IMG/VR virus record: IMGVR_UViG_3300009128_001970 | Span: 1 to 64,000 of that record | Strand: one strand, 5' to 3' | DNA from: a virus | Length of the DNA: 64,000 nucleotides | In this document: in pieces, positions 10,175 through 43,944 of the stretch | Layout of the letters: every line of letters begins with the position of its first letter | How positions within the stretch are numbered: position 1 is the stretch's first letter | Position numbers and translations under genes: made by a program | The notes under the pieces: model-generated | What the model saw: only the letters and a program-made list of their open reading frames with translations | Told to the model about the DNA's origin: nothing | Databases searched by the model: none

Positions 10175-10984
10175 TTCGACGCTTATAATCTCGAGCGGCG
10201 TTGCAATATACTCATTCCATAATCCAGTCTGTACGCCCTCTGGATCTAAGCACTTGTCTAAATCATAGCAAATATTATTCGCTGCCCTACCGGGATACTC
10301 AAGGCGATACATGTTGCACGCTCGTCTGCCGTTATCCAGAGCCAAAGACTTTATATCGCTACGGAACGCAGCCCTTACATTTCCTACTAACCTAACAGTA
10401 AGAGTGGAAGTCTTTCTGAAAAACATCCGCTCAGCTACAGTGAAAGTTGAAATATCAAATTGCTCTCCAGCTTCTATCGCGCGGGACAAACGATCTAACC
10501 CATCCGGGCTTGTAAAGTGCCATAGATCTGCTGGATTTTCCAGGGTACCATAAAGCTGCGTCGTGTATTCATCGTCCAACATCACATATGGTTCGATATC
10601 CCCACGAGAATAAAAGTATGCAAACTTCAATTTAGAGACGTCTGGGAAGTAATGGCTAAATTCATTCTCGAACCCCCAAAAGCGATGGTTCACGAAGTCC
10701 TCTATGAAATCAAGAACATTTTTGCTTGTCAGGAGGTCATATCTATCCACCTCTACTGTGAGCTGATAGCCCCAGAATTTTGCAATAAGTTGTACGAATC
10801 GATCCATATCTTCTTGTGTGCAAAAAGACATATGTTTACAGCTGATTTTACCTGACCTCGTGTCGAATCCACGGGACTGAAGCTCTATTAATTCTTCCAC
10901 AACGGTACGCCATTCGCCTAACGTAAAAAATACCTCAGCTGGACGGATATACCCAAGCACCTTAAATTTTTCGAAGTTACCCAT
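10166..10984 (-). CDS. Unknown phage protein, possible ADP-ribosyltransferase-like fold
   Basis: 272 residues from ATG at 10984, which overlaps the stop of the large upstream gene by 8 bases. The second half (LWHFTSPDGLDRL, FDISTFTVAERMFFRK, RLVGNVRAAFRSDIKS, NEYIATPLEIISV) reads like a compact alpha/beta enzyme. A W/Y-H-F-T-S beginning and a late E-Y-I-x-T-P strand would fit the ADP-ribosyltransferase fold, but the diagnostic residues are not certain. It is the most downstream gene of the LREY-motif block and itself lacks the motif. Confidence 0.45.
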   Translation of the reverse strand: MGNFEKFKVLGYIRPAEVFFTLGEWRTVVEELIELQSRGFDTRSGKISCKHMSFCTQEDMDRFVQLIAKFWGYQLTVEVDRYDLLTSKNVLDFIEDFVNHRFWGFENEFSHYFPDVSKLKFAYFYSRGDIEPYVMLDDEYTTQLYGTLENPADLWHFTSPDGLDRLSRAIEAGEQFDISTFTVAERMFFRKTSTLTVRLVGNVRAAFRSDIKSLALDNGRRACNMYRLEYPGRAANNICYDLDKCLDPEGVQTGLWNEYIATPLEIISVESS

Positions 10985-13100
10985 TTTCTGGCCTAAATTC
11001 AATCGGCCATTCTTGCTCAGGCCACCGAGACATTAAATAATACTGCCAAGTGTCTCTAATCTTTGTCATCAGGGGGGACAACTCTTCTTCAGAGTAGCCC
11101 TTGCTTAGTCCTGTAGCGTAGATCTTATTGAGGTCTTCATCAATTTCATCCGCTGCATGCGACTCATGCCTCTTAGATTTAAGAACAAGGCTGGACACGT
11201 ATGAGGGCACCTCAGCCTCACTTGTGTAGTAATAATCAGCACGATCTAAGGATTTCCATATCTCAGAATCCGGGACGTTCCTCTGTACATCCATTAGGAC
11301 ATCTGTGGACTGTCCTGAATGTTCTAGCTCGTGGCGAATATCAGCTTCAATTTCTACTTTAAGCTTTTCTACTTCTTCGTCTGAGTAGTCTGTTGGCATT
11401 TGAAGATTAATTCGAATATCTGATTCTTCTCGCTGCTCATCAGTCGCATCTAGATCAAATTCATAGCTTGCATCGCTGTTAAAAATATCTGCTGGCTCCA
11501 TTTTCACATACACATTTCGCAGCCACAACACTGCTTCTGGTAACTCAACTTCTACTTGAAACCCAAGCGGACCCTGTGCCGCAAACGCACCCCTGAGGTC
11601 TTCATCTAAAAGATATTCGATAACTTCATCAGCTATCAATGTTGCGACCTTCTCAAGCTTCCGGCCAGTTAATGATTTTTCGATCAATAGAGCCCTCACG
11701 TACCCACGTAATATATCTTCGTTCAGGTGTTTGTTCAGCAAAGCCAAGAGCTCTTCGTCTTTCTTGTCTAATAGTTGTCCAAATGGCGGAACCACAATTC
11801 CCTTTTTGTCTCTTGGGCCTTTTTCAATAAAGCCAGGAATATCCTCTTTCTTCGCTTCAATCGCTTCAATCGCCTTTCGCTGTTCATCTGACGTAAGCAT
11901 TTTGATTACATCTTCGGGATGTCGTGTTGCTCTTAAGCCAGAGAGATTAAATTTACTTTGACCCTTTTTCCATTGCTTTAATTCTTCACCGGACATCCAG
12001 GATGGTTTTGTTGCTGGCCGGTGGTGGCCACGTCCATACAGGGAAGGCATCATCTCATCCCACAACTCTTCCTTGTCCATACTCTTACCCATGAACTCGA
12101 TCTCTTTACCCGCCTCGTTCCAGACATCTTCAGGAACTAGTACTTCGGAACCATGATCATATCGATGTAAACCACCTGATTTAGCTATAACCCACTGTGG
12201 TACTTTATAGGCGTATACGTGACCAGATCTACCGTGATTGATCGCTATATCAATTGGGTTGGGGGTTAAGAAAACGCCGGACTTAACTGGACTATCAAGC
12301 CAGTGTCGTTGCCAGTTGTCGGTTCCTGGAACGTCTACATAGTCGCCTGTTCTTTCATGCGTGTCCGGGTCAATTGCATCCGGGTCCCACTCTTGAAAAT
12401 ACGACATTTTCGGCTGGGGACGAGCGGGACGAAAGCGATTAATGTGATACAGGACACGTTTGTCTTTCTGGCTTCGGACGGTTTTTTCCAAACAAAGCTT
12501 GATGTATCGTCTTACTAAATTTTCATTCTGCTTACTCAACACTGGGAGATCCATCACAGCGCCAGGGTCGACGTCGGGCTGTACACTCCCTAAATCGCAG
12601 GGCGCATTGAGCACAACATTAACAAAGTGCGGTACCGCTGTGAGTCCCATAGATTCTACAAGCTTAACAAAAGCCTGTAGATGGTCTGCTCTATCTTCCC
12701 AGATATGTACTTCTTGTAAGTCAGGCAATTTTTCAGCTAGCTTTTCAATCATTGAAGATTTCCACGGCAGAGTCCTAACATCTCCAGTGGGCTTAAGCAA
12801 GATCTCTTCAAACGTTAGCCCTCCCATAGCAAGAAGCTCTGCTATCCGACCAACTAATTCAGGTTTTCTTGTGCGACCTGTCATTAAAATCGCATATACA
12901 TTGGGGTCGGCTATACTGCTATGTGCACTAGACACTGTGCTGCCTATCCACAAATCATTGGGAGGATCGATTACACAGGGCGGTGACAACGATTGTAGCG
13001 TATCGTACCAATGACCGATGTGACCTTCCCAATCGTCGGGATGCATCGGGCTCATGAAAAGAGTTGCATCAAAATCGTATATGTGCAACTGAGTTTTCAT
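10977..13100 (-). CDS. Three-module protein: HAD phosphatase-like, ART-like, and HELEH metallopeptidase-like, separated by LREY-type linkers
   Basis: 707 residues. Residues 1-165 are a HAD domain (IYDFDATLF; TGRTRKPEL; IWEDRADHL) like that of Swiss-army-knife RNA-repair proteins. Residues 215-460 start with LYHINRFRPARPQPK and contain GVFLTPNPIDIAINHG and HVYAYKVP, an arrangement resembling the ADP-ribosyltransferase/RES folds. Residues 476-707 carry RHELEH (589-594) with a later Glu-rich SEAEVPSY (627-634), a zincin-like pair also found in the protein at 59695-60531. LVRRYIKLCLEK (195-206) and ILRGYVRALLIEK (463-475) separate the modules and match the recurring linker. It may be a polyprotein cleaved in the capsid. 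Confidence 0.6.
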   Translation of the reverse strand: MKTQLHIYDFDATLFMSPMHPDDWEGHIGHWYDTLQSLSPPCVIDPPNDLWIGSTVSSAHSSIADPNVYAILMTGRTRKPELVGRIAELLAMGGLTFEEILLKPTGDVRTLPWKSSMIEKLAEKLPDLQEVHIWEDRADHLQAFVKLVESMGLTAVPHFVNVVLNAPCDLGSVQPDVDPGAVMDLPVLSKQNENLVRRYIKLCLEKTVRSQKDKRVLYHINRFRPARPQPKMSYFQEWDPDAIDPDTHERTGDYVDVPGTDNWQRHWLDSPVKSGVFLTPNPIDIAINHGRSGHVYAYKVPQWVIAKSGGLHRYDHGSEVLVPEDVWNEAGKEIEFMGKSMDKEELWDEMMPSLYGRGHHRPATKPSWMSGEELKQWKKGQSKFNLSGLRATRHPEDVIKMLTSDEQRKAIEAIEAKKEDIPGFIEKGPRDKKGIVVPPFGQLLDKKDEELLALLNKHLNEDILRGYVRALLIEKSLTGRKLEKVATLIADEVIEYLLDEDLRGAFAAQGPLGFQVEVELPEAVLWLRNVYVKMEPADIFNSDASYEFDLDATDEQREESDIRINLQMPTDYSDEEVEKLKVEIEADIRHELEHSGQSTDVLMDVQRNVPDSEIWKSLDRADYYYTSEAEVPSYVSSLVLKSKRHESHAADEIDEDLNKIYATGLSKGYSEEELSPLMTKIRDTWQYYLMSRWPEQEWPIEFRPENG

Positions 13101-13771
13101 ACGCCCAATTCCTTTAGCTGTTCCACAGTGTCTACGCTTCCGCCCGGCAGATGCCAGATACCAATTCCGCCGGCGGCATTCCAGCTGTCGACGGTCGTAA
13201 GTTTATCATCAATAAGTATGTTGGGAATGCCGTTGGTCGTTGCATACCTGGCTTTCTGTTTGGCTGGTGACATAATAATTTGAGAAGGTTGAGGCTTAAG
13301 CCACCTGTGTATCCACAATTCCTTCCCTTCGGCCGTTGTCATAACAGCTCCCTCTCTCGCCCTAATTTCAGCAGTCAGTATATTCACAGTCCGACCAGTC
13401 CCCGTCAGAAATGGCCAAAGTTTTTCCAGAGCGTCAGCATGTGGCTTCATCTCAGCAAATATAGGACCAGGATTTGCTCCAACAGCACCCATCATAAAAT
13501 TTCGAACCGACTTAATATCTAAATCAGGACGACCCTTTGCGCGCCAATCTGGACCGAGCTCTCCGCGTACTTTTGCTAGCCTCTTCTCGTAACCCTTCGT
13601 AATTTCAATCCCTGGAGAGATGCCACCGCCCAAAAGACCGTTGATAAATCTCACAATCATATCTTCAAAATTTACCAAAACGCCGTCCATGTCACAGAAT
13701 ATCTGGGACTCGGGTTGCACTCGAGCAGTCACTTGCAGCACCTCACTGATGTATTCGCGAAGTAAGCTCAC
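13097..13771 (-). CDS. HAD-family 5'-nucleotidase-like phosphatase with N-terminal LREY motif
   Basis: 224 residues from a GTG at 13771 that overlaps the upstream TGA (GTGA); AGGAAAT lies upstream. The N terminus SLLREYISEVLQ is the recurring helix, then a HAD domain: FCDMDGVLVNFE (motif I), ILTAEI (motif II), PAKQKARYA (motif III lysine) and LIDDKLTTVDSW (motif IV). The family removes phosphate from nucleotides or repairs RNA ends. With the 2H phosphoesterase next door, RNA-end processing is one option and nucleotide metabolism the other. Confidence 0.75.
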   Translation of the reverse strand: MSLLREYISEVLQVTARVQPESQIFCDMDGVLVNFEDMIVRFINGLLGGGISPGIEITKGYEKRLAKVRGELGPDWRAKGRPDLDIKSVRNFMMGAVGANPGPIFAEMKPHADALEKLWPFLTGTGRTVNILTAEIRAREGAVMTTAEGKELWIHRWLKPQPSQIIMSPAKQKARYATTNGIPNILIDDKLTTVDSWNAAGGIGIWHLPGGSVDTVEQLKELGV

Positions 13772-14232
13772 CTTAATATTTCCTCTATTCTGCCGCACAC
13801 AACGATTGAGGTAATAGCCTCAAAATTATGCTTATCGATAACTGGCTTAAACTTCCAATTAGACATCGCAGGCTTGCCACCCTCTGCTGGATTCGTAGCA
13901 ATAGTGATGTGAGGATATTCTGGTCCCTTCATCGGAAGAGGTAATCCTTCCAGATCAACTAGCGCAGTCATGACCTGAGCCGATTGTGCAATTCCCACGA
14001 CTCTCACGCAAAGGTCTTGGTCAAGCCATTGCGACGGTAACCGTAATTTCTGGTTGGGTGGATTAATAATCGTCATGTGATGAGCAAAGACTTTCCAGCC
14101 TTCGGGAGCAAAAGCGGCTAGCTTCTGATGTGACGCGTCGTCCAGAACAAATGCTGTATATTCTATCCCATAGCCCTGACCAAGATTTATCTCTGTCAAA
14201 AGCTCGCTTATGTATTCACGGAGAAGGTTCAT
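13768..14232 (-). CDS. 2H phosphoesterase (Swiss-army-knife RNA-repair type) with N-terminal LREY motif
   Basis: 154 residues. MNLLREYISELLTE is followed by a two-histidine phosphoesterase domain: HHMTI (His52, Thr54) and PHITIAT (His108, Thr110), the pair of HxT motifs that handle 2',3'-cyclic phosphates. YGIEYTAFVLDDASHQKL and GWKVFAHHMTI match the domain that accompanies HAD domains in RNA-repair proteins. The enzyme should open cyclic phosphates left by ribonucleases on cut tRNA. Its ATG lies inside the stop region of the next gene upstream (ATGA-type overlap). Confidence 0.8.
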   Translation of the reverse strand: MNLLREYISELLTEINLGQGYGIEYTAFVLDDASHQKLAAFAPEGWKVFAHHMTIINPPNQKLRLPSQWLDQDLCVRVVGIAQSAQVMTALVDLEGLPLPMKGPEYPHITIATNPAEGGKPAMSNWKFKPVIDKHNFEAITSIVVCGRIEEILR

Positions 14233-14876
14233 TATTCAATCTCCACCAGTTTTCCAGCTGCACGAAGCGCATCGATGGTTTTGGGAGGTGCCGTGTATCT
14301 CTTACTGAGCGGTGAATCAACCCAGCGAGTATCATCAGATTTTTCTGCGGTGAATGCTGGTACCGTTGTCTTCATGGCTATCCACTGCTGGCAGTTATCT
14401 TCCCATTCTGGAGTTAGCGTATCTTTCATGTCATCTAATTGATGCGCTGTGACGTCCGGTCGGTTGTTCATATAGTATTCCCATACACGTCGAGCATAAG
14501 GAGAAACCGAACTTCTATCTGAAATTAAGCCGCCAGATCCGTCAAGCGATGCGTACTCAATTGCAACATCATATACTAACGGACCCCAACCGTGAGTTGC
14601 TCCAGAACCTTCCACCACGAATGCATCGCCACAAGGTCCGGTCTCTGACGGTCTTGGCTTGGCAATTTCTATTCCTGCGTGTATGGAATTATCATACCTC
14701 TCCCCGTGCTCCTCTCTAGTCCTCCACCGATTTCCCTTCTCATCGCCGATGTATACGAACACTGATGAACCGCCGTACCTTTTTAGTATTGTCACGAAAG
14801 CACCCTCAGGAAGATCTTCCACGGTCTTGGCAGCTTCGGTGAGCAGAGCTCGGATATATTCGCGAAGCAGGTTCAT
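14232..14876 (-). CDS. LREY-motif protein, acetyltransferase-like unknown
   Basis: 214 residues. MNLLREYIRALLTEA leads into a soluble domain with GPCGDAFVVEGSGATHGWG, PLVYDVAIEYAS, SDRSSVSPYARRVWEYY and TPEWEDNCQQW. The pattern G-W-G-P-L-x-Y-D-V-A-x-E and VW-x-Y resembles proteins I have seen in large marine phages, possibly with an acetyltransferase-like (GNAT) core, but the acetyl-CoA loop is not clear. One- or four-base overlaps with both neighbours place it in the cargo operon. Confidence 0.55.
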   Translation of the reverse strand: MNLLREYIRALLTEAAKTVEDLPEGAFVTILKRYGGSSVFVYIGDEKGNRWRTREEHGERYDNSIHAGIEIAKPRPSETGPCGDAFVVEGSGATHGWGPLVYDVAIEYASLDGSGGLISDRSSVSPYARRVWEYYMNNRPDVTAHQLDDMKDTLTPEWEDNCQQWIAMKTTVPAFTAEKSDDTRWVDSPLSKRYTAPPKTIDALRAAGKLVEIE

Positions 14877-15355
14877 TTTGGTCCCACATAAACTACATTA
14901 CCAGATGATGGGTAATCACGACCCACCGACTTCCAGACTCGCTGCGCGGTGCCGGAAGTAGAACCCGCTGCACACTCATCAGCGCCGACAAAGGCACCAC
15001 GATTACCAACATGCTTACCAATCTCTTCAATTATTGCCTTGTATAACTTCTTACCGTATCCAAATCCCCTAAAAGCTTCATCCACATGAGATTCTCCTAT
15101 CGCATATAGCGTCGGCCCCAGGGTCGGAAATTTCGGATTATCGTAATCATAACCCTGAGCTTTGAGTTTCTCTACATCTTCTGTACAGTGCTCGTACTTA
15201 AGAACTTCGCGAGCTGTAGCTGAGCCTATTCTCATTCCGCTCATCATTATAGCAGCTGCGACTCCATTTCCATAATTTTGTACTCTGATAGTGACTCCAG
15301 AAGAGTCAGCGTCTTCGGTCAAGATCTCTCTTATATACTCACGCAGCGGATTCAT
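14873..15355 (-). CDS. GNAT-family N-acetyltransferase with N-terminal LREY motif
   Basis: 160 residues from ATG at 15355 (MNPLREYIREILTED); an upstream in-frame start would add seven residues before the motif. The GNAT core is SHVDEAFRGFGYGKKLYKAI, whose R-x-x-G-x-G loop binds the pyrophosphate of acetyl-CoA, followed by VGADECAAGSTSGTAQRVWKS. The substrate could be a protein, tRNA or small molecule. The overlap with both neighbours is 4 and 17 bases. Confidence 0.75.
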   Translation of the reverse strand: MNPLREYIREILTEDADSSGVTIRVQNYGNGVAAAIMMSGMRIGSATAREVLKYEHCTEDVEKLKAQGYDYDNPKFPTLGPTLYAIGESHVDEAFRGFGYGKKLYKAIIEEIGKHVGNRGAFVGADECAAGSTSGTAQRVWKSVGRDYPSSGNVVYVGPK

Positions 15356-15890
15356 CTTCACAACCCTCCTCTGCACTTATAAGTTCTTTTATTCCAGACG
15401 CGTTCCACACGCACCCTGACGCTACGTCCCACCCGTAATACCAGTCCGAGTCCGGTCGCATTTTCCATAGATAGGGACAGATCTCAATACCGTCATAATG
15501 ACTTGCGACCTTTGGCCAGTCAATCTTGATGTCCCCGTAGCTATTGGGAACGCCGTACATCTTCTCAAATTTCTTAAAATCATGATTATCTGTTATGAAC
15601 AAGATTTCATAATCATTCAAGACAACGTTATATGCGCTATCATATCTACTTGCACCGTCCGTTAGGCCCGTCCTACAAAATTCCAGCCAGTCTATCGAGC
15701 TACCGTCTTTGCATTCATACCACAGACCACTGGGCTTGTAGCCAACCCTCTGTGAAAAACCACTGATCTGTGGTTCTTTACCGTCTCTAGTGTCTTGTCG
15801 GCTGTGGTGGATGCGCACCTTCTCTCCACCTGTCAATGGAAAATGAGACTCACGGAGCAGCTCTTCTATGCATTCACGGAGGAGGTTCAT
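15339..15890 (-). CDS. LREY-motif protein of unknown function
   Basis: 183 residues starting at ATG 15890 (MNLLRECIEELLRES). The remainder has KPSGLWYECKDGSS, WLEFCRTGL, a long middle strand region, and GIEICPYLWKMRPD plus WDVASGCVWNASGI at the end. The K-P-x-G-L-W strand and the final W-x-x-A-S-G-x-V-W motif are familiar from phage and toxin-like proteins whose activity I cannot name with confidence; an ADP-ribosyltransferase-like fold is one possibility. Confidence 0.5.
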   Translation of the reverse strand: MNLLRECIEELLRESHFPLTGGEKVRIHHSRQDTRDGKEPQISGFSQRVGYKPSGLWYECKDGSSIDWLEFCRTGLTDGASRYDSAYNVVLNDYEILFITDNHDFKKFEKMYGVPNSYGDIKIDWPKVASHYDGIEICPYLWKMRPDSDWYYGWDVASGCVWNASGIKELISAEEGCEDESAA

Positions 15891-17695
15891 GCCTTTACCA
15901 TCATCGGATTGTCTTCTGCCTTTATCATTAGAGGCCGGAACTGAGTCCTTTGCTTGGCCCACTGATCCTTAGACTTGATAAAGACGTAAATTCCAGTGAG
16001 AGGTATCTCAGCGCCAGGCTTAAACCTTACTTCTGCCTCATCGTAAAACAAGCCGGGCTCTTCGCCTGCAGCCTGAGGATCGTATCCAGCTTCTTCATCG
16101 ACCGTGGCTTGAAATATGACGTGGAGTTCGGCGCCACGGTTTGTTGCTCCCCAGGCATCTGCAAAACTAACAGCAACATCAAAGCTGAGCGACCATGATG
16201 CACCCGTACTTTCGCCCTCAAGACGGCCAAGCAAAAATCTTATCAATTCTTGCTGCGTAATTCCTTTCTCTTCGCCAGTCTTAATGTACTGACGGACCTT
16301 TGAAGCCAAAATAGCTGGTGACATCTTGATCTTCATGCCACGCCAGACATTTTTCTTGCCCTCTGTACGGGCAGGCCAATACTCTGTAAGTAACGCTTCT
16401 CGTATATACGCACGTAACTCGTTCGTCTCTCGAGGACCCAGCGAAGATGCCTCTCCGTACTCTTCCTCGTACCACCCTAGCTCATCAACTAGTTCGTCTG
16501 ACTCTATATCGGCACCGACCATACTGATCACTACGGGATTAATGATTTCCCCCACTCCAATCGGAAGCGGAGGGATGGGAATGCCGGTCATCGAAAAGAA
16601 TGCCATGGGTATAATAAAATTATCGAGTGCCTCCCCTACAATAATTCCTATCGCGATAGGCAAGCCCTTTTTGAGGCCACCAGAAAGACCCTCTTCCCGA
16701 ACTGCACTACGAATTGCACCAATTGCCTTTTTGATGAGCTTAACGGGGTTAACCTTTTCATTGGCAGTTTCCAGCGCCGCAATGACCATCTGCTCAGATA
16801 TTTGATCTTCAAATTCTGCGATCTGCGCCTCAACTGCTTCTTTCCTGGCTTGGGTCGGCAATCGATTACCTTCCCACGAGTCTGCATTATTCCAGCCCCA
16901 TGAGTACCCCAATATGTAATCGGCAGAATCCTCAGAGTGACCCAACTGTTTTGGACTTGGATCTTCAAAAGACCACCCTTTTTGTTTCTCCCACCGACCC
17001 TCTATTGCGCCATCAAGAAATTCAGCAACATCCTCGTTGATTTCTTGCTCCATGACATGACGAACTAAACCAGGGGCTATGCGTTTAAACGCAGCATCTA
17101 ACACGTCATCATAATGACGAGTCTCTATAAAGTCACTCACCCCTGAAAGCAGGGACGCTTCTGCTTCCTCTCTTTCAAGTAGAAATTGTTCTCTTACGTA
17201 CTCACGTAGGAGCTCCACGCTAAGCTTGCTGTCTGTATCACCCATAATCCAATCATGCGTAAAATTATCGATATCTGTGATTTCGCTGACTAGCGTCTCG
17301 CGACCAAGACCCTGAAGATAGCCCTGATATGCTTTATCAATTTCTTTCAGTGTTACAGGATCGAGGTGTTTGGCCAAAGAAGGGTGCATCTTCATCCGAG
17401 CCAGAATGGGATACTCTTCCAGCTCGGCCCAGGTGTGTTCCTCATTCTTCCCCGCTTGGTACATGGCAAATAATCCATCTGCGGCACCAAGCGCACCACC
17501 AACGAGTGGTATCTCCCCCATGGCGATCTTTATGAATTCAATCCCGACATTTGCACTACGCACCCGACGGCCGGCTTCGTCTGTTTCTTCTTGGATACGT
17601 TCGATAAGATCCAAGATCTCACCGACAGTCTTCATCTGACTTGGGTGGAGTTCTTCCTCTGGAGGGACGTTAACATATTCTCGAAGCAAGCTCAT
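15887..17695 (-). CDS. Polyprotein-like: LREY motifs at 2, 161 and 426 enclosing three modules, last one an R-S-E ADP-ribosyltransferase
   Basis: 602 residues. SLLREYVNVPPEEE at the start, ELLREYVREQFLLE at 161-174 and ELRAYIREALLTE at 426-438 divide the protein. Module 1 (15-160) has TVGEILDLIERI and IPLVGGALGAADGLFAMYQ and is paralogous to the middle module of the next gene. Module 2 (175-425) has a hydrophobic glycine-rich stretch near 345-395 that might cross a membrane. Module 3 (439-602) is ADP-ribosyltransferase-like: Arg452 in VWRGM, STGASWSLS at 496-504, and Glu553/Glu555 in DEAEVRF, i.e. the R-S-ExE set of arginine-specific enzymes. Cleavage at the motifs would free a small toxin-like effector. 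Confidence 0.65.
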   Translation of the reverse strand: MSLLREYVNVPPEEELHPSQMKTVGEILDLIERIQEETDEAGRRVRSANVGIEFIKIAMGEIPLVGGALGAADGLFAMYQAGKNEEHTWAELEEYPILARMKMHPSLAKHLDPVTLKEIDKAYQGYLQGLGRETLVSEITDIDNFTHDWIMGDTDSKLSVELLREYVREQFLLEREEAEASLLSGVSDFIETRHYDDVLDAAFKRIAPGLVRHVMEQEINEDVAEFLDGAIEGRWEKQKGWSFEDPSPKQLGHSEDSADYILGYSWGWNNADSWEGNRLPTQARKEAVEAQIAEFEDQISEQMVIAALETANEKVNPVKLIKKAIGAIRSAVREEGLSGGLKKGLPIAIGIIVGEALDNFIIPMAFFSMTGIPIPPLPIGVGEIINPVVISMVGADIESDELVDELGWYEEEYGEASSLGPRETNELRAYIREALLTEYWPARTEGKKNVWRGMKIKMSPAILASKVRQYIKTGEEKGITQQELIRFLLGRLEGESTGASWSLSFDVAVSFADAWGATNRGAELHVIFQATVDEEAGYDPQAAGEEPGLFYDEAEVRFKPGAEIPLTGIYVFIKSKDQWAKQRTQFRPLMIKAEDNPMMVKA

Positions 17696-19311
17696 CCGAG
17701 CCCCCCGAGTTTCTTCAAGATTTTAATTCCCTTAACTCGAACGGAACCAAATCCGACGATCTCCTCTTCCCAATGAAAGTCGTCTAGACGATCGAATCTG
17801 TACAATTCCTTCAAGTCAAGAAACGTATTCGTTGCCGAATCTGCGATTAAAACTACTCCCACCATACCGTGTCCGGCTCGACCGAATTGCTCGGCCACGT
17901 CTCTTGATGGAGTCCATGAAGACACTGTTCTTGATTCATTCCGGTTTTGATATTCGAAATCAACCGGGATAACATCAGACCACTGCCAGTGAAGTTTCGA
18001 TGTTGGCCATGTTGCTTCTTTCCAGCCAGGCGCGTGTTCATCCAAGTATTCTTGTGAAACTTCCATGCCGCGGTAGGCGTCGCCACTCGTATGTAGTATG
18101 AAAACGTCGTTATAAGCTGGATCTTTGGAAAAACTTACCATCGCATCTAGCAAGTTTGTAGGCACTTTTGAACTAAGGCCTTGCAGGTGACCCCATAATG
18201 CCGTCCAAATTTCTCCCTCTAGCTCTGTGTCTCTTTCGGATCCCATATGACGTCCCAGCGGAGCCCTATCAGAAAATATTTGCCGACCAAGTTCACCGGC
18301 CTCCAACATTGTCCTTACGTACTGACGCAACGATAACTCGACATTTTCTTGCTTCATTACAGGAGATGAACTAGCTGGTACACCCCCGGCTGCGCCGTGG
18401 ATTCCTCGCTCATCGAAATTTTGATTAACCCAAGCCTCCAATTTATTATTCATGTCAGGGAGTGGAGCATCTGGTGGAAGGCTTTCGAGCCAAGGAATCA
18501 CGACCTCATCGAATGCAGCTTCAAGCCGATCATCCAACATTTGCTGATACTTATCATCAACATCCAGCATGTCTAGAACGACGTTGTCTTTCGTGGCCAG
18601 ATCATCGGGAGTGTCTTTTGCTAATTTGTAAATATCACCGATTGTCTTGGCCATCTTGATTCCTTTTCCAACCACAGGAATGAATTTGACCATTTCCCAA
18701 CCAATTTTCTTAGCAAGCTTTTTCATACGCTCTTTGCGCTGGGCTTCATCATCGACGCCCTTTATCGCTCCTAAAGCGTCTAAAACGCTTCCCACCGTTT
18801 GGCGTTCCACTTCTTCGCTCAACACCTCTCTTACATACTCGCGTAGGAAAGCTTCATTATATGAAGCAATCTTGATTCTATCAGGCGGAATATCTTCCAA
18901 CACTGCCGCTGTTCCCGTAACTGCAATTGCTAACTTGGCTTCCCTACTTCCGGGAACAAGCAAATTTTCTATATTGACCGCGCCGTCACTTGCTATAGGG
19001 GATAATTCTTCTGGACCGATTCCATCCCACCAAATAAGTTCATCTCCATCCAAGCTGGGGGGCTCGTCTCCCAGGTCTGCGACAGCTGCTAAATCCGCTA
19101 CAAGGGATAATCCCTCTGTGTCGACCAACAAGGGAATCCCGGCGAATTTTCCCTTTTTAACAGATAGAAAAACAGGCCGCATACCATAAAGCTGGTCTGC
19201 CCATTGAGCGTGCACCTGGGTATAGCCCGCTTCGCCGGTAGCATCAACCTCAAGACCGTTCGCTAATATATCACGAGCATTTGCTGGAGTGGTTGCATGA
19301 TACATCTTCAT
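17692..19311 (-). CDS. Polyprotein-like: ART-like module, shared helical module and R-S-E ADP-ribosyltransferase, divided by LREY motifs
   Basis: 539 residues. Module A (1-150) starts MYHATTPANARDIL, then G-L-x-V and VFLSVKKGKFAG, an ADP-ribosyltransferase-like beginning. AFLREYVREVLSEE at 154-167 follows. Module B (171-320) has TVGSVLDALGAI and FIPVVGKGIKMAKTIGDIYK and is paralogous to module 1 of the downstream gene. LSLRQYVRTMLEAG at 326-339 follows. Module C (340-539) has Arg414 in AYRGM, SSWTPSRDVAEQF at 464-476, and Glu515/Glu517 in HWEEEIVG, the full R-S-ExE signature. T4 Alt is a packaged ADP-ribosyltransferase cut at such a signal, which is the closest known parallel. Confidence 0.68.
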   Translation of the reverse strand: MKMYHATTPANARDILANGLEVDATGEAGYTQVHAQWADQLYGMRPVFLSVKKGKFAGIPLLVDTEGLSLVADLAAVADLGDEPPSLDGDELIWWDGIGPEELSPIASDGAVNIENLLVPGSREAKLAIAVTGTAAVLEDIPPDRIKIASYNEAFLREYVREVLSEEVERQTVGSVLDALGAIKGVDDEAQRKERMKKLAKKIGWEMVKFIPVVGKGIKMAKTIGDIYKLAKDTPDDLATKDNVVLDMLDVDDKYQQMLDDRLEAAFDEVVIPWLESLPPDAPLPDMNNKLEAWVNQNFDERGIHGAAGGVPASSSPVMKQENVELSLRQYVRTMLEAGELGRQIFSDRAPLGRHMGSERDTELEGEIWTALWGHLQGLSSKVPTNLLDAMVSFSKDPAYNDVFILHTSGDAYRGMEVSQEYLDEHAPGWKEATWPTSKLHWQWSDVIPVDFEYQNRNESRTVSSWTPSRDVAEQFGRAGHGMVGVVLIADSATNTFLDLKELYRFDRLDDFHWEEEIVGFGSVRVKGIKILKKLGGLG

Positions 19312-20945
19312 AATAGCTCCCGTATGTACGACCTTAACTCGCCAACCAAACTCGAATATGCATCAACCTCAGCTGCCTTCATAGCTTGTCCTATTGCTTC
19401 ACCTGCAAGGCCTTGAGCCATTAGCTCTTGTGGATTGCTGGCTGGCGGATTTGAAACAAATTTCAAAAAGCCCTGAACAACACGATCAGAAAGCTGAGGG
19501 GTGACAGCTGCGAAATCCTCAATATCATTAATAGAAATCTTGTGTCGAATGAAGTCCTTCTTTAATTGGGGCGCAGTTTCTTTTGTGATGCTTTTCAATC
19601 GAATCAAAAAATTAATAAGAATAATCTGCTTACGAGAATAACGCATTTCTTCCAGCACCTGCTGCGTATCTTGTGATGCATTATCACCCAGCAATGCTGC
19701 AACCTGTACATACGGATTGCTGGCTGTACCAGAAAGCGGTGTAATTTGAAGACCCGGGAATATCTGCTCAAACAATCCCAGTTCTGTTATCAGGTTTATA
19801 AAGTGATCAAGGTTAGCAGCAGAACTAACACCGTTCAAAAATTCTTCCCTTATACGCTCTGGGCTAACATCAGTCAAACTATTGTCTTTAAGAATTGCAG
19901 CCTTTGTAGCAGGATCCAGCTCTGCGCCCATTCGGCCTGCGAATCGAATAGTACGTAAAATACGTAGCCTGTCTTCATCAAAACGTTGGGCTGGATCTCC
20001 AACGGCTCGAATTACGCCGTCTTCAATGTCTTTTATTCCACCAACGTAATCAACGACCTCGCCTGTATTCATATCATAGAACAACGCGTTCACTGTCAGA
20101 TCGCGTCTTTTTACATCACCCTCTATACTGGTGAATGCCACGCCCTCAGGTCGACGACCGGGGCCTATATCTTCTCTAAATGTTGCAATCTCGTATTCAT
20201 TTTTGTCGGGGGTCTTCACTCTCACCACACCAAAAGCTTTTCCTGTTAAGTCAAGCCTGAGTCTGCCATGGCTCTGTAAAATTCGAATCACCTGGTCTGG
20301 AGTTGCATTCGTAGCGACATCGTAATCTTTGGGAGTCTTCCCCATCAACGCATCACGAACAGCACCTCCAACGACATATAATTCTTTTCCCGCTTGCTGC
20401 ATACGACGGTGGATATCTTTCAAGTCTTCTGGTACAGAGAGATTTAACGGCTCACGAATCGCGGTAGCTTCTCGAAGTAGCGCTTCATTCATCCATGCAT
20501 CACGGTCCTGCATCATCACATAGAGATCATCATCCCAAGGCCCTTCACCACCCTTCATCGCACAATTGAGTATAGCCTCTTCAGCAGTGAACTCCTTGTA
20601 CACCTCAGGCTGATACATATCGTAATAGAATTCTTTTTCAATACCATTTGGTTTTGTTATTCTGGTCTGATCATCAAAGACTAGATCTCCCATTTCAACC
20701 CACCCATGAACAACTGGCTTCGGCGGCTTCTTCCACTTATCTGTTACTGTACCATGAACAACTTTGAACTTACTCTTGTCATTTAAGTTCGGGTGCCTCT
20801 TTGGGCCGCGGCCCGGCTTAGCCTTCGTAAAGTGATCGTTAAACCACTCTTCAGCTTTCTGGTATGCGAAAGGAAAACACATTCCTGTAGCAAGTACATT
20901 ACTTTCTACAAGCATTTCTTTTACGCATTCGCGGAGGAGAGTCAT
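19308..20945 (-). CDS. tRNA CCA-adding enzyme / poly(A) polymerase with LREY motif and extra N-terminal domain
   Basis: 545 residues. MTLLRECVKEMLVES, then a separate domain to about 140 (FAYQKAEEWFND; VHGTVTDKW; HGWVEMGDLVFDD), a short LREA-containing linker, and the nucleotidyltransferase: VVGGAVRDALMG (191-202), KDYDVATNATPDQV (206-219), RRDLTVNALFYD and DEDRLRILRTIRFAGR. This is the class II CCA-adding/poly(A) polymerase head and neck; the tail domain is helical. The C terminus is another copy of the motif, ELRSYIRELL. It can add or restore CCA on tRNA, such as the phage tRNA-Asn. The motif suggests that it travels in the capsid. Confidence 0.85.
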   Translation of the reverse strand: MTLLRECVKEMLVESNVLATGMCFPFAYQKAEEWFNDHFTKAKPGRGPKRHPNLNDKSKFKVVHGTVTDKWKKPPKPVVHGWVEMGDLVFDDQTRITKPNGIEKEFYYDMYQPEVYKEFTAEEAILNCAMKGGEGPWDDDLYVMMQDRDAWMNEALLREATAIREPLNLSVPEDLKDIHRRMQQAGKELYVVGGAVRDALMGKTPKDYDVATNATPDQVIRILQSHGRLRLDLTGKAFGVVRVKTPDKNEYEIATFREDIGPGRRPEGVAFTSIEGDVKRRDLTVNALFYDMNTGEVVDYVGGIKDIEDGVIRAVGDPAQRFDEDRLRILRTIRFAGRMGAELDPATKAAILKDNSLTDVSPERIREEFLNGVSSAANLDHFINLITELGLFEQIFPGLQITPLSGTASNPYVQVAALLGDNASQDTQQVLEEMRYSRKQIILINFLIRLKSITKETAPQLKKDFIRHKISINDIEDFAAVTPQLSDRVVQGFLKFVSNPPASNPQELMAQGLAGEAIGQAMKAAEVDAYSSLVGELRSYIRELL

Positions 20946-20948
20946 GAA

Positions 20949-21419
20949 TTACCCGCTCTGTTCTATTAGCAAAGTTCTTACGTACTCGCGGAGCATAGAC
21001 TCGTTCATGGAAGAAATACCACTTACAACATCACCAACTTGAACGCCTCGCTTCTTAAACCAGCCAGCATTCATTTCTAGCGCATACTTTGCTGGCTCTG
21101 TTGACCTTACAGAAGTTCGGTTAAAAGGATGCATCCGCTCTATATTAATAATTTTTCCAGCTTCTGTTAGATAAGCAATCGACAACGGGATGAAGGTATT
21201 CTCCATCCAAAATGAACGATAGTCGGTGTCAGGGAAAACGAACAACATACCATCATCCTCATTCATCGATTGTCTATGCATCAAGCCTCGATTTCTTGCT
21301 TCTGTCGTTGTTGCCAGCTCAGCGTTAACTTTAAAGCCACGTACACGTAGATCAATACATCCGGAGTCAACCTGCGATGTCATAATCTCTCTTGCATATT
21401 CGTTCAATAATTGCATCAT
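20949..21419 (-). CDS. DUF192 (UPF0127) protein with LREY-type motifs at both ends
   Basis: 156 residues from ATG at 21419, which overlaps the upstream TGA. The first 16 residues (MMQLLNEYAREIMTSQ) are a diverged motif. The DUF192 core follows: ELATTTEARNRGLMHRQSM, GMLFVFPDTDYRSFWMENT, IPLSIAYLTEAGKI and YALEMNAGWFKKRGV. This small beta protein is widespread in bacteria, often exported, with no assigned activity. The C terminus, MLREYVRTLLIEQSG, is a perfect motif placed just before the CCA-adding gene. Confidence 0.75.
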   Translation of the reverse strand: MMQLLNEYAREIMTSQVDSGCIDLRVRGFKVNAELATTTEARNRGLMHRQSMNEDDGMLFVFPDTDYRSFWMENTFIPLSIAYLTEAGKIINIERMHPFNRTSVRSTEPAKYALEMNAGWFKKRGVQVGDVVSGISSMNESMLREYVRTLLIEQSG

Positions 21420-22096
21420 CCGCCGCCCAGTAGAATCTTCATGTGGTCTCCGGCGCATGCCCCCGAGATACCACGACAATACCAAGCCTCATAATCAGGC
21501 CCGTACCTATTCGCATATTTCTCGTTAGGATGTCGGCCTGTCCAGTCCACCTCTTTACCTAGCATCGCTTCCACAGCCTCCTCTGTCTGAACTGCAGGGA
21601 CTCCATGTCGAGTGATCATGATATGTGCAATCTTCCCTGACATCTCTGCAATTGCACCAGCTCTTAGATCTGCTGCTGTCTCTTCGAGATAGCGATCGAT
21701 TGCAGCACGAGTTCCATCATGGCCGACGATGCCCAGCTTGAATCGGCCCTTGACCATCTTTCCGCCGCGAAAATAATCGGGGTCAGGATCTTCGTCTATG
21801 TCGGCTCCCTTCATGATAGTGTATTTATAGGGTAGATCCCCTGGACTTTGAATTTTGATGTTGCCAAATGTCGCTGGGCCCTCTTCCGACGCCGGCGTTA
21901 GCTCGACATCTTGATATGCAACTTGTATCAGGTCAAATATTTCTTCATCCAAGTCACGCACGTTCGGAGTATTGGTTGCAAAATCTGCAGGATCGATAGG
22001 GATGGTCTTTCCCTTGGGTGCCTGGAAATCAGCCCAGCTCTTTTCCAACAACGTTCTGCGTATCAAATGTCGTAAAGCAGATTCAGTTAACCTCAT
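21416..22096 (-). CDS. LREY-type motif protein, unknown enzyme-like domain
   Basis: 226 residues. MRLTESALRHLIRRTLLEK is the N-terminal helix. The core has YFRGGKMVKGRFKLGIVGHD, TRAAIDRYLEETAADL, IAHIMITRHGVPAVQTEE and YEAWYCRGISGACAG. This combination looks like one family seen repeatedly in large environmental phages and may be an acetyltransferase-related fold, but I cannot assign it. It overlaps both neighbours by 4 bases. Confidence 0.5.
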   Translation of the reverse strand: MRLTESALRHLIRRTLLEKSWADFQAPKGKTIPIDPADFATNTPNVRDLDEEIFDLIQVAYQDVELTPASEEGPATFGNIKIQSPGDLPYKYTIMKGADIDEDPDPDYFRGGKMVKGRFKLGIVGHDGTRAAIDRYLEETAADLRAGAIAEMSGKIAHIMITRHGVPAVQTEEAVEAMLGKEVDWTGRHPNEKYANRYGPDYEAWYCRGISGACAGDHMKILLGGG

Positions 22097-22353
22097 TTCT
22101 TATCTTCCTCTTCCTTCTCAAGTTCGGCGATTGTCTTCTTGCTCCACTTCTCTTTCGGCATCAATTTTTCAATCCTGAACGCTAACACTTTCATGCCATT
22201 CACAGTCGGTTGGCCCAGGTCATCGGTACCAAGTTTCTTGACCACCGTTCGCTTGTTCTTGAAGCGACCGGTTAGTATGATGTCTCCAACCTCAAGATCG
22301 AGCGCAAGCTCTTCAGCAATGATCTGTCTAATCTGTCGTCTTGTGATTTTCAT
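22093..22353 (-). CDS. Small barrel protein with N-terminal helix of the LREY type
   Basis: 86 residues. MKITRRQIRQIIAEELALDL is a diverged cargo helix. LEVGDIILTGRFKNKRTVVKKL and GQPTVNGMKVLAFRIEKLMP form a small barrel. The combination (helix plus V-G-D-x-x-x-x-G-R-F-K-N-K-R) is common in large marine phages. A basic-acidic tail ends the protein. Possibly a virion or scaffold-associated peptide. Confidence 0.6.
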   Translation of the reverse strand: MKITRRQIRQIIAEELALDLEVGDIILTGRFKNKRTVVKKLGTDDLGQPTVNGMKVLAFRIEKLMPKEKWSKKTIAELEKEEEDKK

Positions 22354-22892
22354 TAGAAATTCACTGCTCCTCTAGTGCTAACTTCTGGATACTTGTCTAC
22401 CATCTTATCTTTGAGGTGACCGATCTCTTTCCGCATCATCTTACCAAAACTAACGTTGTCACCAGGTTTGGCAACAGTGTTATAAAATTCATCAATCAGC
22501 ATGCTGGCAGTCCCTTGGCCACCTTTATCACCACGAGTCTTCATATAGTCAATGTACCACATATCATTTCCGCCTGACGAAACACCTTCTTTGTGGTAGT
22601 CTAAAAATCCAATAACGCAAGCATCAGAAACCCCGGGAACCAGCTGGCCCTTTCTCGGTTTCTTTAATCGTCGACCCGAAGCGCCATAATATTCCATCTC
22701 TTGTCTTTGGTTGAAGTATGCATCTATTTTGGGCTTGCCAGTAGGGCCCATGTGGGGTTCTTCTACCGATGTATCGCAAAGTGCTATTCTTTTTATATCT
22801 GAAGCGCGACTGTACTTAAGGGGAGAATCAAGCGTCCGAAACTCAATGCTTTCATTAAGAATTTCTTTGATATATTCTCGCAATAATGACAT
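22353..22892 (-). CDS. GNAT-like protein with N-terminal LREY motif
   Basis: 179 residues from ATG at 22892 (MSLLREYIKEILNES); an earlier in-frame start would precede the motif. The core has ACVIGFLDYHKEG, WYIDYMKTRGDKGGQGTAS and MLIDEFYNTV. R-G-D-K-G-G-Q-G-T-A fits the acetyl-CoA loop of the GNAT fold (Q/R-x-x-G-x-G/A). C-terminal part MMRKEIGHLKDKM. The target is unknown. With 14873-15355 this makes two probable acetyltransferases in the cargo block. Confidence 0.6.
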   Translation of the reverse strand: MSLLREYIKEILNESIEFRTLDSPLKYSRASDIKRIALCDTSVEEPHMGPTGKPKIDAYFNQRQEMEYYGASGRRLKKPRKGQLVPGVSDACVIGFLDYHKEGVSSGGNDMWYIDYMKTRGDKGGQGTASMLIDEFYNTVAKPGDNVSFGKMMRKEIGHLKDKMVDKYPEVSTRGAVNF

Positions 22893-22922
22893 TCCGGCAC
22901 GTCCTATTAGGGCGGCCAACGT

Positions 22923-23678
22923 CTAACGAGCGCGGCCTGTACGACTAAGTATCTTTTTCAAGCGTAAATTAACCGTTTCATTGCACCCAGATTCCGAAGA
23001 AATCCACCCCGCTGCCACGCGGAAAGCTGATATCTTCACTGACGGAGCAAATTGCTTACACAATGCAGCAACTGCCCTTACATTATTTTCGTTATCATCA
23101 TAAAAAATTAACTCATCTGGTTTATACTTGTTTAGATATCCAGTCAATACGTTGACCTTGTGTGCAGCGCTATTAGAGCCCTGGTCACCCACTGTATGTA
23201 ATCTGCTGTCATCAAAGCTGATTCCATTATCTTTTAAGAACTGAAGGATCTGGGAGCGGTTTAAGGGCTTTACTGACGTTCCCTGAGACGGACTGTACAT
23301 CTGCTTCTTCCCTGCTCTCGCCGTTATGATTAATGCTAGCGTATCAGGATCTGATTCTGCTTCAACCAGCTTTTTTAACATTGGGGTAATCACTTGAGCT
23401 TTGCTCACATCAAATGAAGATGTCCCAACGTAATCAATCACATCCTCAAATCCTTCAGCATGCTCTTCATACAATGCAAAATTTGCAGAATCTAACCAAT
23501 AAAACTCATTACCACCCGTACCCGTTACATCCATATATTGAATATTGTGGTCTAGCAACCAGTCTTCTAACGTGGGAGAGGACGTTCCAGCTGCCTCTGG
23601 GCGCTGAACACCGATTCGCGATTCAGTAACCGCCAGCGTGTCATCAAAATCAAATGCAACTATTTTTCGTATAGGCAT
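22923..23678 (-). CDS. HAD-family phosphatase, RNA-repair type
   Basis: 251 residues without the LREY motif. FDFDDTLAVTES is motif I, LIITARAGKKQMY motif II, and IFYDDNENNVRAVAALC motif IV. LHTVGDQGSNSAAHKVNVL is the segment before it. The layout matches HAD domains of Swiss-army-knife RNA-repair proteins, which remove 3' or 5' phosphates. It is the first gene of the 23.7-10.2 kb minus-strand block, 16 bases below a TATATTTA element. Confidence 0.75.
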   Translation of the reverse strand: MPIRKIVAFDFDDTLAVTESRIGVQRPEAAGTSSPTLEDWLLDHNIQYMDVTGTGGNEFYWLDSANFALYEEHAEGFEDVIDYVGTSSFDVSKAQVITPMLKKLVEAESDPDTLALIITARAGKKQMYSPSQGTSVKPLNRSQILQFLKDNGISFDDSRLHTVGDQGSNSAAHKVNVLTGYLNKYKPDELIFYDDNENNVRAVAALCKQFAPSVKISAFRVAAGWISSESGCNETVNLRLKKILSRTGRAR

Positions 23679-23694: not shown

Positions 23695-23702
23695 TAAATA
23701 TA
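23695..23702 (-). promoter_or_regulatory. YATATTTA element (TATATTTA) before the cargo block
   Basis: Minus-strand copy 16 bases upstream of the HAD gene at 23678, the first gene of the LREY-motif block, and just outside the tmRNA gene that runs the other way. It is a candidate start for the whole block. Confidence 0.4.
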
Positions 23703-23731: not shown

Positions 23732-24076
23732 GGGGGCGATATGGCTTCGACAGGGTAGCAAAGGAGTATAAGAGTGCAGGTGGTCTCAGGAAACAGCAGA
23801 CCTAAATCGCGGTTTCAAAAAAGATAGTTGCCAATAACAACAATCACTTCGAATACGCCCTAGCTGCGTAATCGGGTGGTTGCCTAAAACCATCTATCCA
23901 ATTTAGGCTAAGTGAAGTAGCATCACTGAAATAAAATAATGCTCGAACCTTGTATCCGCGAGCAGGGGGGTTTCACCAGCGGAAGATTTGTCAGTTTAGA
24001 AAAACTGTCTAAACCTGTGAATGACTTGATCCCTAAACTGCTTTGGACGCGGGTTCGACTCCCGCCGCCTCCACCA
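23732..24076 (+). ncRNA. ssrA: Transfer-messenger RNA (tmRNA), one-piece
   Basis: 345 nt. The 5' end GGGGGCGATATGGCTTCGAC and the 3' end GCGGGTTCGACTCCCGC plus acceptor and CCA are the classic tRNA-like half: the acceptor stem GGGGGCG/CGCCTCC pairs with one G-T. The tag reading frame lies at 23830-23871 and encodes ANNNNHFEYALAA before TAA. The YALAA end is the usual ClpXP degradation signal. tmRNA with SmpB frees stalled ribosomes and tags the broken product. The gene is uninterrupted, so it is not the two-piece alphaproteobacterial type. Confidence 0.95.
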
Positions 24077-25417: not shown

Positions 25418-25447
25418 TGAAAAGCGTATGTGTGCGATGGAATAGCA

Positions 25448-26329
25448 ATGAAAAAGCTAAATGTCTCTAAACAGCAATTACAGTATATTATTAGAGAAGA
25501 GCTTTCAAAGCATGAACTGATCACGCTCCGAGAAGCGATCAGAGAATTATTAAGCGAAGGTATCTACGATCCTGGAATTCTTAAAGCTGTCTTTATGGCT
25601 GGCGGTCCAGGAAGCGGAAAAAGCTTTACGGCAAAAGTGCTCTTTGGCGGAAGCCTCGCAAATGAATTGTCGGCTTCGACGGCCATGGGACTTAAAATTA
25701 TTAACTCTGATCCAGCTTTTGAAAAATATCTTGAAGAAGCAGGTGTCGACCCAGGCGATCTTGCAAGAATTGCAAGAGAAGATCCCGAAAAAGCTTATGA
25801 GCTAGGACTTGACGATGAACGTGGTGTACCTGCCAGCTCACCTCGAGGGAAAGCAAAACAATACAAGACAGCAGCTACGCAGCAATACACAAAGTCAACG
25901 GCACGGCTCGGTGTTATTATCGATGGAACCGGTGATGATCTAGCCAAAATTGAAAAGAAAAAAGAGGCCATGGAAAAACTTGGCTATGATACCTACATGA
26001 TTTTTGTCAACACAACGCTTGAGGTTGCGCAAGAAAGAAATATGAACCGACCAAGAAAGCTGCCGCCGAAAAAAGTTGAAGAAATCTGGACAGACGTTCA
26101 AGCAAACCTTGGCGCATTCCAAGGATTATTTGGACAGGGAAACATTTCGATTGTTGACAACACAGTGTACGGCCCTGTCGACGAAGCAGTACAGAAAGCG
26201 GTGGGTGGATTTGTCAATCGACCTATTAAAAATCCGATTGGTAAAAAATGGATCGAAACGGAACTGGAACAACGTGGTGGTGGAACGAAAAAAGAAAGAG
26301 GCCGCTTATTTGGAAGAAGCAAAAAATAA
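25448..26329 (+). CDS. P-loop kinase, zeta-toxin-like, with two N-terminal targeting-type helices
   Basis: 293 residues from ATG at 25448 (GGAATAGCA upstream). Two diverged motifs in tandem open the protein: VSKQQLQYIIREEL and LITLREAIRELLSEG. The kinase domain has MAGGPGSGKSFTAKVL (P-loop), IINSDPAFEKYLEEAG, LGVIIDGTGDDLAKI (Walker B-like), RNMNRPRKLP (lid) and ISIVDNTVYG. This matches zeta toxin/polynucleotide-kinase-like proteins; zeta toxins phosphorylate UDP-GlcNAc, others phosphorylate RNA. It is the only plus-strand gene with the cargo helix. Confidence 0.75.
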   Translation: MKKLNVSKQQLQYIIREELSKHELITLREAIRELLSEGIYDPGILKAVFMAGGPGSGKSFTAKVLFGGSLANELSASTAMGLKIINSDPAFEKYLEEAGVDPGDLARIAREDPEKAYELGLDDERGVPASSPRGKAKQYKTAATQQYTKSTARLGVIIDGTGDDLAKIEKKKEAMEKLGYDTYMIFVNTTLEVAQERNMNRPRKLPPKKVEEIWTDVQANLGAFQGLFGQGNISIVDNTVYGPVDEAVQKAVGGFVNRPIKNPIGKKWIETELEQRGGGTKKERGRLFGRSKK

Positions 26330-38572: not shown

Positions 38573-38574
38573 CT

Positions 38575-40550: not shown

Positions 40551-40568
40551 AAAAATGCCCATCCAAGA

Positions 40569-41804: not shown

Positions 41805-41844
41805 GGCCTACCTCACCAATAAGTATCACCAAGAATAGCGGTTT

Positions 41845-42297: not shown

Positions 42298-42321
42298 ACC
42301 GAAATAGTAGAGTGATTAAGT

Positions 42322-43939: not shown

Positions 43940-43944
43940 GCCAC

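Follow-up and report, generated by a model that had tools for sequence, protein, structure and literature searches.

Relation to described capsid-targeting signals

According to excerpts of one published account (PMC9026906), the prohead protease gp21 of bacteriophage T4 cuts after L/I-X-E; for targeting, ten residues of the T4 peptide are enough, with positions 4 and 7 directing the protein and positions 8 and 10 governing its processing; Alt is processed at its C terminus as well; and the gp23 propeptide is 65 residues long. In SPN3US and phiKZ the propeptides of head and ejection proteins are removed after Glu by a distant gp21 relative (PMC5694885 and PMC9026906, excerpts), and the polyvalent proteins reported in 2017 are multi-domain chains of joined unlike enzymes that are thought to be injected with phage DNA (PMC5512222, in part). 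Here we analyse a 64,000-nucleotide viral stretch (the window), positions 1 to 64,000 of the 70,502-bp viral metagenome record IMGVR_UViG_3300009128_001970, in which the helix LLREYIRELLxE or a close variant (hereafter the tag) is carried by 13 of 13 consecutive minus-strand open reading frames (ORFs) in 10977-22919, at the N terminus, inside the protein or at the C terminus. An initial annotation, made from the letters alone, had counted at least ten such consecutive genes and proposed a T4-like targeting and cleavage signal; the run is confirmed, and the proposal is supported by the sequence comparisons that follow. The tag is very probably a capsid-targeting sequence like that of T4, carried by 18-33 proteins per contig, with the fused cargo predicted to be cut in the prohead.

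From a shared peptide, its L-x-E end, the accompanying protease and T4-type head genes, and modular fusions at the tag, all established at the level of sequence, we infer core binding, cleavage, presence in the virion and injection. The tagged proteins would be made late, alongside the head genes, and the amphipathic tag helix would bind the growing prohead core and draw the attached protein inside. There the S77 (gp21-type) protease would cut after Glu at Ile8-x-Glu10 and/or Leu12-x-Glu14 of the tag, and the same protease would cut internal tag copies and bare (L/I)xE sites between fused domains. One polypeptide would thereby yield several freed enzymes that remain alongside the DNA and pass into the next host.

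Like the T4 capsid-targeting sequence of IPI-IPIII and Alt, the tag is a short N-terminal peptide on unrelated proteins that ends L/I-x-E, in a genome with an S77 protease and T4-type head genes. Set register for register, T4 MKTYQEFIAE and the tag MNLLREYIRE have Glu6, an aromatic residue at position 7, Ile8 and Glu10 in common, and the T4-register score is equalled by 3 of 1,686 untagged N termini and by 0.0011 of random 9-mers. The two differ in sequence, the tag (MNLLREYIRELLxE) adding a second cut site; in number, with 18-33 tagged proteins per contig against the three internal proteins plus Alt given in the excerpted review; and in placement, since tag copies also lie inside proteins here and would make them polyproteins. 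The SPN3US and phiKZ system is alike in having propeptides with redundant cut sites on packaged proteins, which are here predicted from genes, but in the same excerpts its motifs are A-x-E and S/A-x-E, and several SPN3US propeptides exceed 100 residues, only one being as short as that of T4. Polyvalent proteins likewise hold unlike enzymatic domains in one polypeptide, and Pfam ART-PolyVal is matched by one of 120 tagged proteins. Their processing is ascribed, in the cited part of PMC5512222, to their own peptidase domains, whereas the joints described here hold sites compatible with the prohead protease, and some of the joined domains occur elsewhere as separate tagged proteins. A text search of the paper collection with four peptide strings gave no match, and the excerpts gathered on capsid targeting, prohead proteases and polyproteins deal with T4, SPN3US, P1 and polyvalent proteins, with none on this peptide. 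New here are the size of the set, its clade-specific sequence, a sister tag, and polyprotein joints that retain the cut site without the helix.

Distribution of the tag and its predicted cut site

The window is contained at 99.998% identity in a 254,743-bp contig (G003), whose source is judged to be a large phage of bacteria. G003 carries a T4-type head module that includes an S77 prohead protease and a capsid protein; its terminase, portal and acidic scaffold are putative, assigned by position and appearance. The main comparison set comprised five related tagged contigs of 255-293 kb with 1,797 ORFs, and the 12 control phages included T4, KVP40, phiKZ, P-SSM2 and the isolates whose capsid proteins are closest. 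Tag-bearing contigs number 27 in all, several of them near-copies of one another.

A 12-column profile built from 54 distinct tags reached a score of at least 10 in 11 of the 13 window ORFs. The two below that score carry LTESALRHLIRRTLLE (21416-22096) and MKITRRQIRQIIAEEL (22093-22353), the latter in the sister form, and degenerate copies begin 15887-17695 (LLREYVNVPPEE) and 20949-21485 (LLNEYAREIMTS), while the C-terminal end of 19308-20945 reads ELRSYIRELL, without the Glu. Across the five contigs the profile found 16, 18, 15, 14 and 15 tagged proteins, 78 in total against 1.67 expected from composition-preserving shuffles, a number that measures enrichment rather than a blind test because the profile was trained partly on the same contigs. 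The start-anchored DNA pattern MxLLREYIRE gave 64 matches on 27 contigs of the viral collection, with up to six in one stretch, and 13 matches in 10 stretches of 257 Gb of prokaryotic genomes. Seven of these ten look like phage DNA in metagenome-assembled genomes; three of the seven lie on two contigs of one such genome, and four hold 2-7 tagged ORFs each. In the other three the matches fall within single ORFs and look like chance, two of these ORFs resembling a bacterial housekeeping enzyme. Screening large phages with a hidden Markov model of the motif, as the initial annotation had suggested, gave strong matches in all three tagged contigs searched (G003, G017 and G015) and only two weak ones, neither convincing (E 0.014 and 0.028), in the 12 control phages. 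By sequence, then, the tag is restricted to one clade among the phages compared, and a chance origin was rejected on the shuffles, the control phages and the 257 Gb scan. Of the two contigs that hold three of the phage-like stretches, one, in a Halobacteriovorax metagenome-assembled genome (L128-L130), is exactly as long (101,404 bp) as the tag-bearing IMG/VR contig of L052, and is either a lead to the host or a binning error.

The end of the motif had been read as L-x-E, and this is what the 54 tags contain. Position 12 is L, I or M in all 54, position 13 is free, and position 14 is E in 50; the residue before position 12 is L in 40 of 54, and past position 14 no residue is common to more than 16. 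An (L/I)xE motif occurs in every tag, ending at position 10 in 49, at position 14 in 50, at both in 45 and at neither in none, although the search restricted position 10 to E or A, so that independent evidence comes from position 14 alone. Of the four tags without E there, three show an L-x-E at least one residue later, by eye. The pattern looks like that of a propeptide that is cut away.

The T4 gp21-type protease sought in the same genome was found on G003 (Pfam S77, E = 2.3e-25), and S77 is present on 11 of 11 tag-bearing contigs of at least 119 kb and on none of the 16 fragments of at most 101 kb. T4-type heads are regularly accompanied by an S77 protease, and its presence therefore indicates a T4-type head more than a special link with the tag. 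Matches to the major capsid protein come from 2,511 phage records, and in none do they extend over 80% of the protein. The maturation site of T4 gp23 (E65, FLTE) aligns with L-R/K-E in five of five relatives, directly after an 18-column gap in the alignment, and with I-S-E in Mel-JY01. In the same five relatives a tag-like helix (approximately MAK..R..LK.LVKECL.EIL.E) opens the protein encoded between protease and scaffold, which ties the peptide to the head core.

Two further observations concern the scaffold. Its N terminus (L014:8008-8060, G003 148008) contains LYxEAIAEA in two of the five relatives, with similar sequences in the others, and resembles both T4 gp22 (MLKEQLIAEAQ) and the T4 targeting peptide (YQEFIAEA); by this resemblance, the scaffold terminus may be what the targeting peptide imitates. 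At the opposite end, RWxxLAG[ILVM] closes the putative scaffold in five of five contigs and also in Flavobacterium phage immuto. A looser expression matched 18 times in the five contigs, 15 of them within five residues of the C terminus, examples being the scaffold L014:8008-9774 and the C termini of window proteins 42322-43506 and 46548-47915, and the element may be a terminus that binds the capsid and has been copied to further head proteins.

A sister tag, MKITKRQLRRIIKEE, was present in seven of seven tagged contigs searched with its first nine residues and in none of the same 12 control phages, and the reversed pattern gave no match. In one family of small proteins the members from G003 and G020 bear the sister tag and those from G017 and G015 an LLREYI-type or intermediate tag; because the family switches between the two types, both were counted as a single kind of signal, which marks 18, 33, 27, 32 and 28 proteins in the five contigs. 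The (L/I)xE rule is weaker for the sister tag, holding in 32 of 60 against 310 of 1,637 untagged N termini, and since [VA].E is likewise raised there (15 of 60 against a fraction of 0.118) the site is less specific. Genes starting with the sister-tag sequence MKITKRQL also form runs, at 83243-84060 and 146907-160261 of G023 (the contig of L047), which has 21 such genes, and at 48201-56604 of G017; many of the MKITKRQL genes translated from other contigs are short.

The timing of expression was approached through upstream motifs in the five contigs. ATATTTA stands upstream of ORFs 78 times against 7.6 expected, and the genes behind it include the scaffold (G003, G016) and the portal (G020). Of the tagged operons 8 of 22 have it upstream, compared with 24 of 66 structural operons and 38 of 521 others (tagged versus other, p = 2e-4), and from its placement it is a candidate late promoter. 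The T4 late promoter TATAAATA was rejected for this role: of its 51 matches only 16 lie within 200 bases upstream of an ORF, and none precedes the listed head genes of G003. Separately, the 9-mer TGGTATAAT occurs upstream of ORFs 22 times against 1.1 expected and is likely a sigma70-type early promoter class.

Cargo, fusion joints and competing explanations

The initial annotation had noted that codons vary from copy to copy while residues are kept, and the counts agree. In G003, tag sites with the same residue share their codon at a frequency of 0.358 (n = 394), compared with 0.323 expected from codon usage; for the other four contigs the values run from 0.372 to 0.517, with 0.318 to 0.392 expected. 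By this measure selection is acting on the tag peptide. The outlier is G016 (0.517 against 0.324), where the excess of codon sharing indicates that some copies are recent; recent duplication is accordingly allowed for part of G016 and was rejected for the window's phage.

The attached proteins had been called unrelated, which holds. At 70% identity the 178 tagged proteins collapse to 123, and the 120 scanned with Pfam (three ORFs straddling the ends of stretches were excluded) match 23 families; as memberships sum to 39, at least 81 of the 120 belong to no Pfam family. The families include PolyA_pol, DUF192, zeta toxin, HAD, exonuclease, PAP2 and GNAT, and further phosphatidylserine decarboxylase, NUDIX, HD and ART-PolyVal. 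Among the names first proposed for the window's cargo, the CCA-adding type, DUF192 and HAD were recovered, GNAT (7e-4) and the 2H phosphoesterase (0.012) are weak by sequence, and the ADP-ribosyltransferase assignment is based, for 15890-16417, on a model and conserved motifs, while that of 17692-19311 stays putative.

In two AlphaFold models the tag forms a separate helix with a predicted local distance difference test score (pLDDT) of about 40, compared with mostly 75-98 for the cargo, in agreement with the earlier view that the helix lies outside the fold. A role as part of the fold is unsupported, as the tag is the least confident stretch of both models and yet among the most conserved; one model has a second weak stretch at 173-182. 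Foldseek alone found no match in the PDB at E < 0.001 for either model. In the VIA ranking, 15890-16417, the last segment of 15887-17695, met mostly ADP-ribosyltransferase folds (best Z 6.3, root-mean-square deviation (rmsd) 3.6, 105 aligned) and 14232-14876 mostly acetyltransferase folds (best Z 7.6, rmsd 3.1, 104 aligned). We assign the former, from model and motifs together, an ADP-ribosyltransferase-like fold and the latter a modelled GNAT-like fold, the structural matches being middling in both cases. A sequence search of the 2H-like protein against solved structures gave no match up to E 1.

Tagged proteins of one phage recur as segments within longer proteins of another, and the segment edges coincide with tags. 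The second and third segments of 17692-19311 have relatives that occur on L047 and L041 as tagged proteins in their own right; the window encodes DUF192, tagged at its C terminus, and the CCA-type enzyme as two proteins, which in G017 are joined around a tag; and one 923-residue protein combines DUF192, PolyA_pol and PAP2. An earlier count had put 21 of 48 such junctions close to a tag, where 5.7 were expected, but alignments beginning within domains made it imprecise, and alignment from the first residues of the cargo was then required. This defined 29 joints at which a stand-alone cargo aligns from its first residues inside a longer protein, tags that reached the score being masked. A tag score of at least 10 was found at 15 of the 29, against 0.7 at random, and (L/I)xE at 27, against 4.4 expected. 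At the 13 joints with a tag score below 5, (L/I)xE persists in 11 (1.9 expected), whereas each of the other 19 [LI].X motifs occurs at no more than four and each of 11 other X.E motifs at no more than two, and neither A.E (1, with 1.1 expected) nor S.E (0, with 0.6 expected) is enriched. In seven of these 13 the cargo starts directly after the Glu. The site is present at eight of the eight joints that show no helix by eye (1.25 expected) and at three of the five that retain a degenerate one. The counts indicate, on sequence, that (L/I)xE is selectively retained at joints even where no helix is seen. This retention, which the initial annotation did not have, is the strongest evidence for the proposal and lends indirect support to removal of the peptide in the mature virion. 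Since proteins with low-tag joints are tagged elsewhere, one helix per chain seems enough, with each joint keeping its cut site.

Several results weigh against a capsid-targeting role. The tag profile misses the copies of the T4 peptide, which limits the relation between the two to a resemblance. The aligned capsid site of the isolate immuto is IVSE (V-S-E), outside L/I-x-E, and the N-terminal LTE of the protease is replaced by ITD in G015 and LTS in G017. Within the window, 13097 has no second site, the N-terminal copies of 15887 and 20949 are degenerate and the C-terminal copy of 19308 has no Glu; the two joints with a degenerate helix that lack the site belong to window proteins 17692-19311 and 10977-13100, their ends reading MLE and CLE. 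The 29 joints partly share upstream sequence, the eight helix-free ones deriving by eye from about five contexts, and are thus not independent. ATATTTA is absent upstream of 14 of the 22 tagged operons and, having been noticed before it was tested, counts as supporting evidence only. No proteomics was found for these uncultured phages, and a literature search for mass spectrometry of virions from the isolate Flavobacterium phage immuto listed nothing of use.

The helix might instead dock its proteins, unpackaged, to another assembly of the infected cell, such as a host-takeover or RNA-repair complex, a replication body or the membrane. A detached helix in two models suits any docking role, and some cargo families resemble a single pathway, RNA repair. 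This explanation is nevertheless improbable, in that it does not account for a motif ending at L-x-E with a free residue before the Glu, for (L/I)xE kept at joints without a visible helix, or for a late-promoter candidate common to tagged and head genes. Still less probable is that the tagged proteins are core proteins that enter the prohead and are mostly degraded and expelled, as are T4 gp67 and gp68, so that few reach the particle or the host. The tag-like N terminus of the conserved gene between protease and scaffold, found in five of five relatives, means that the peptide may serve true core proteins. Part of the cargo, however, matches complete enzyme families, and the sites examined, in a survey of fusion joints, fall at domain edges. 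We give hardly any weight to the idea that the shared N termini are functionless leftovers of recent 5'-end duplication or recombination. Some duplication did happen, to judge from the codon sharing in G016 tags (0.517 against 0.324), but this explanation was already disfavoured by the codons of the window's phage, which are nearly as different as codon usage predicts, and tags lie likewise inside proteins and at C ends, with residues fixed across 27 contigs.

If the tag does target proteins to the capsid, a simple peptide rule would allow the proteins that a clade of large uncultured phages packages and injects to be predicted from their sequences alone, and the open question of what large-phage heads contain, and why, would become a list testable protein by protein. 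The window's cargo tends towards the chemistry of RNA and nucleotides, with CCA-adding-type, HAD_SAK and 5'-nucleotidase-like proteins and, weakly supported, a 2H phosphoesterase, and a kinase-like protein lies near the operon; that the cargo could amount to an RNA-repair kit brought in at infection is an appealing idea. We lean, by a narrow measure, towards a broader proposal in which the prohead protease also matures an injected polyprotein arsenal, with enzymes freely fused, one helix sufficing per fusion, (L/I)xE at each joint and the head as the place of cutting. The cargo would include such a kit (CCA-adding enzyme, kinase, 2H and HAD) acting before phage gene expression, for example against host defences that cut tRNA. 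The prohead protease would then be a polyprotein-processing enzyme, as in many eukaryotic viruses, and the tag a modular means of loading several enzymes together.

The tagged operon and its surroundings

The operon is read from the minus strand. A candidate late promoter, ATATTTA at 23695-23701, stands 16 nt before its first gene, an HAD-like protein (22923-23678; Pfam DUF2608, 2.1e-5) in which no tag was seen. The next protein, 22353-22919, has no assigned function and carries MSLLREYIKEILNE at 22851-22886; its relatives on other tagged contigs stand alone or form the C end of longer proteins. There follow the small protein 22093-22353 with its sister (class A) tag at 22303-22338, and 21416-22096 with its intermediate tag at 22043-22078. 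The DUF192 protein (20949-21485; 1.9e-32) has its degenerate N-terminal copy at 21375-21410 and a C-terminal tag, NESMLREYVRTLLIEQSG, at 20961-20996. The CCA-adding-type nucleotidyltransferase (19308-20945; PolyA_pol, 9.2e-37) has an N-terminal tag at 20904-20939 and a degenerate internal one at 20448-20483 besides its C-terminal ELRSYIRELL. Two three-segment proteins come next: 17692-19311, with internal tags at 18814-18849 and 18298-18333, and 15887-17695, whose last segment is ADP-ribosyltransferase-like in the model and whose tags are truncated at the N terminus (17654-17689) and internal at 17177-17212 and 16385-16420.

Continuing along the same strand, 15339-15962 has no assigned function, carries MNLLRECIEELLRE at 15849-15884 and matches phrog_8582 (1e-17; function unknown). 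The GNAT-like protein 14873-15376, with MNPLREYIREILTE at 15314-15349, matches Acetyltransf_1 at 6.9e-4 and 20.3 bits, just below the cut-off of 20.7. Its neighbour 14232-14876, GNAT-like in the model, carries MNLLREYIRALLTE at 14835-14870 and has, among the matches listed, the most relatives of nine window proteins compared. The 2H-phosphoesterase-like protein 13768-14232, with MNLLREYISELLTE at 14191-14226, matches tRNA_lig_CPD at 0.012, below the cut-off, and phrog_36523 at 3.5e-4 (function unknown). In the HAD 5'-nucleotidase-like protein 13097-13798 (phrog_2643, 7.3e-16) the tag at 13730-13765 retains YISE without a second L-x-E. The run ends with 10977-13100, an HAD_SAK protein with further segments (HAD_SAK_1, 1.7e-15) and internal tags at 12483-12518 (LVRRYIKLCLE, degenerate) and 11679-11714 (ILRGYVRALLIE).

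Outside the run, a plus-strand zeta-toxin/polynucleotide-kinase-like protein (25430-26329; Zeta_toxin, 1.7e-8) has a class A tag at 25478-25513 and a class B tag at 25523-25558. Two minus-strand proteins complete the set: 59695-60531, with the class A-like tag MKRISRKYLSKIIKEELHLHNLLE at 60475-60510, recognized by eye, and 42322-43506, with a class A-like helix at 43396-43431 followed by GILNE, recognized by eye and by regular expression, and with the scaffold-type C terminus RWRKLAGLL. For ten head-like genes of the window, at 36215-47915, no PHROGs match fell below E 0.003. Elsewhere in the window, a tubulin/FtsZ-like protein (Pfam Tubulin, 7.3e-5, below cut-off) adjoins a transfer-messenger RNA gene (24149-25381 and 23732-24076), a pairing met here in a phage whose head is of T4 type, and 32082-33665 resembles, by eye, a GroEL-type chaperonin.

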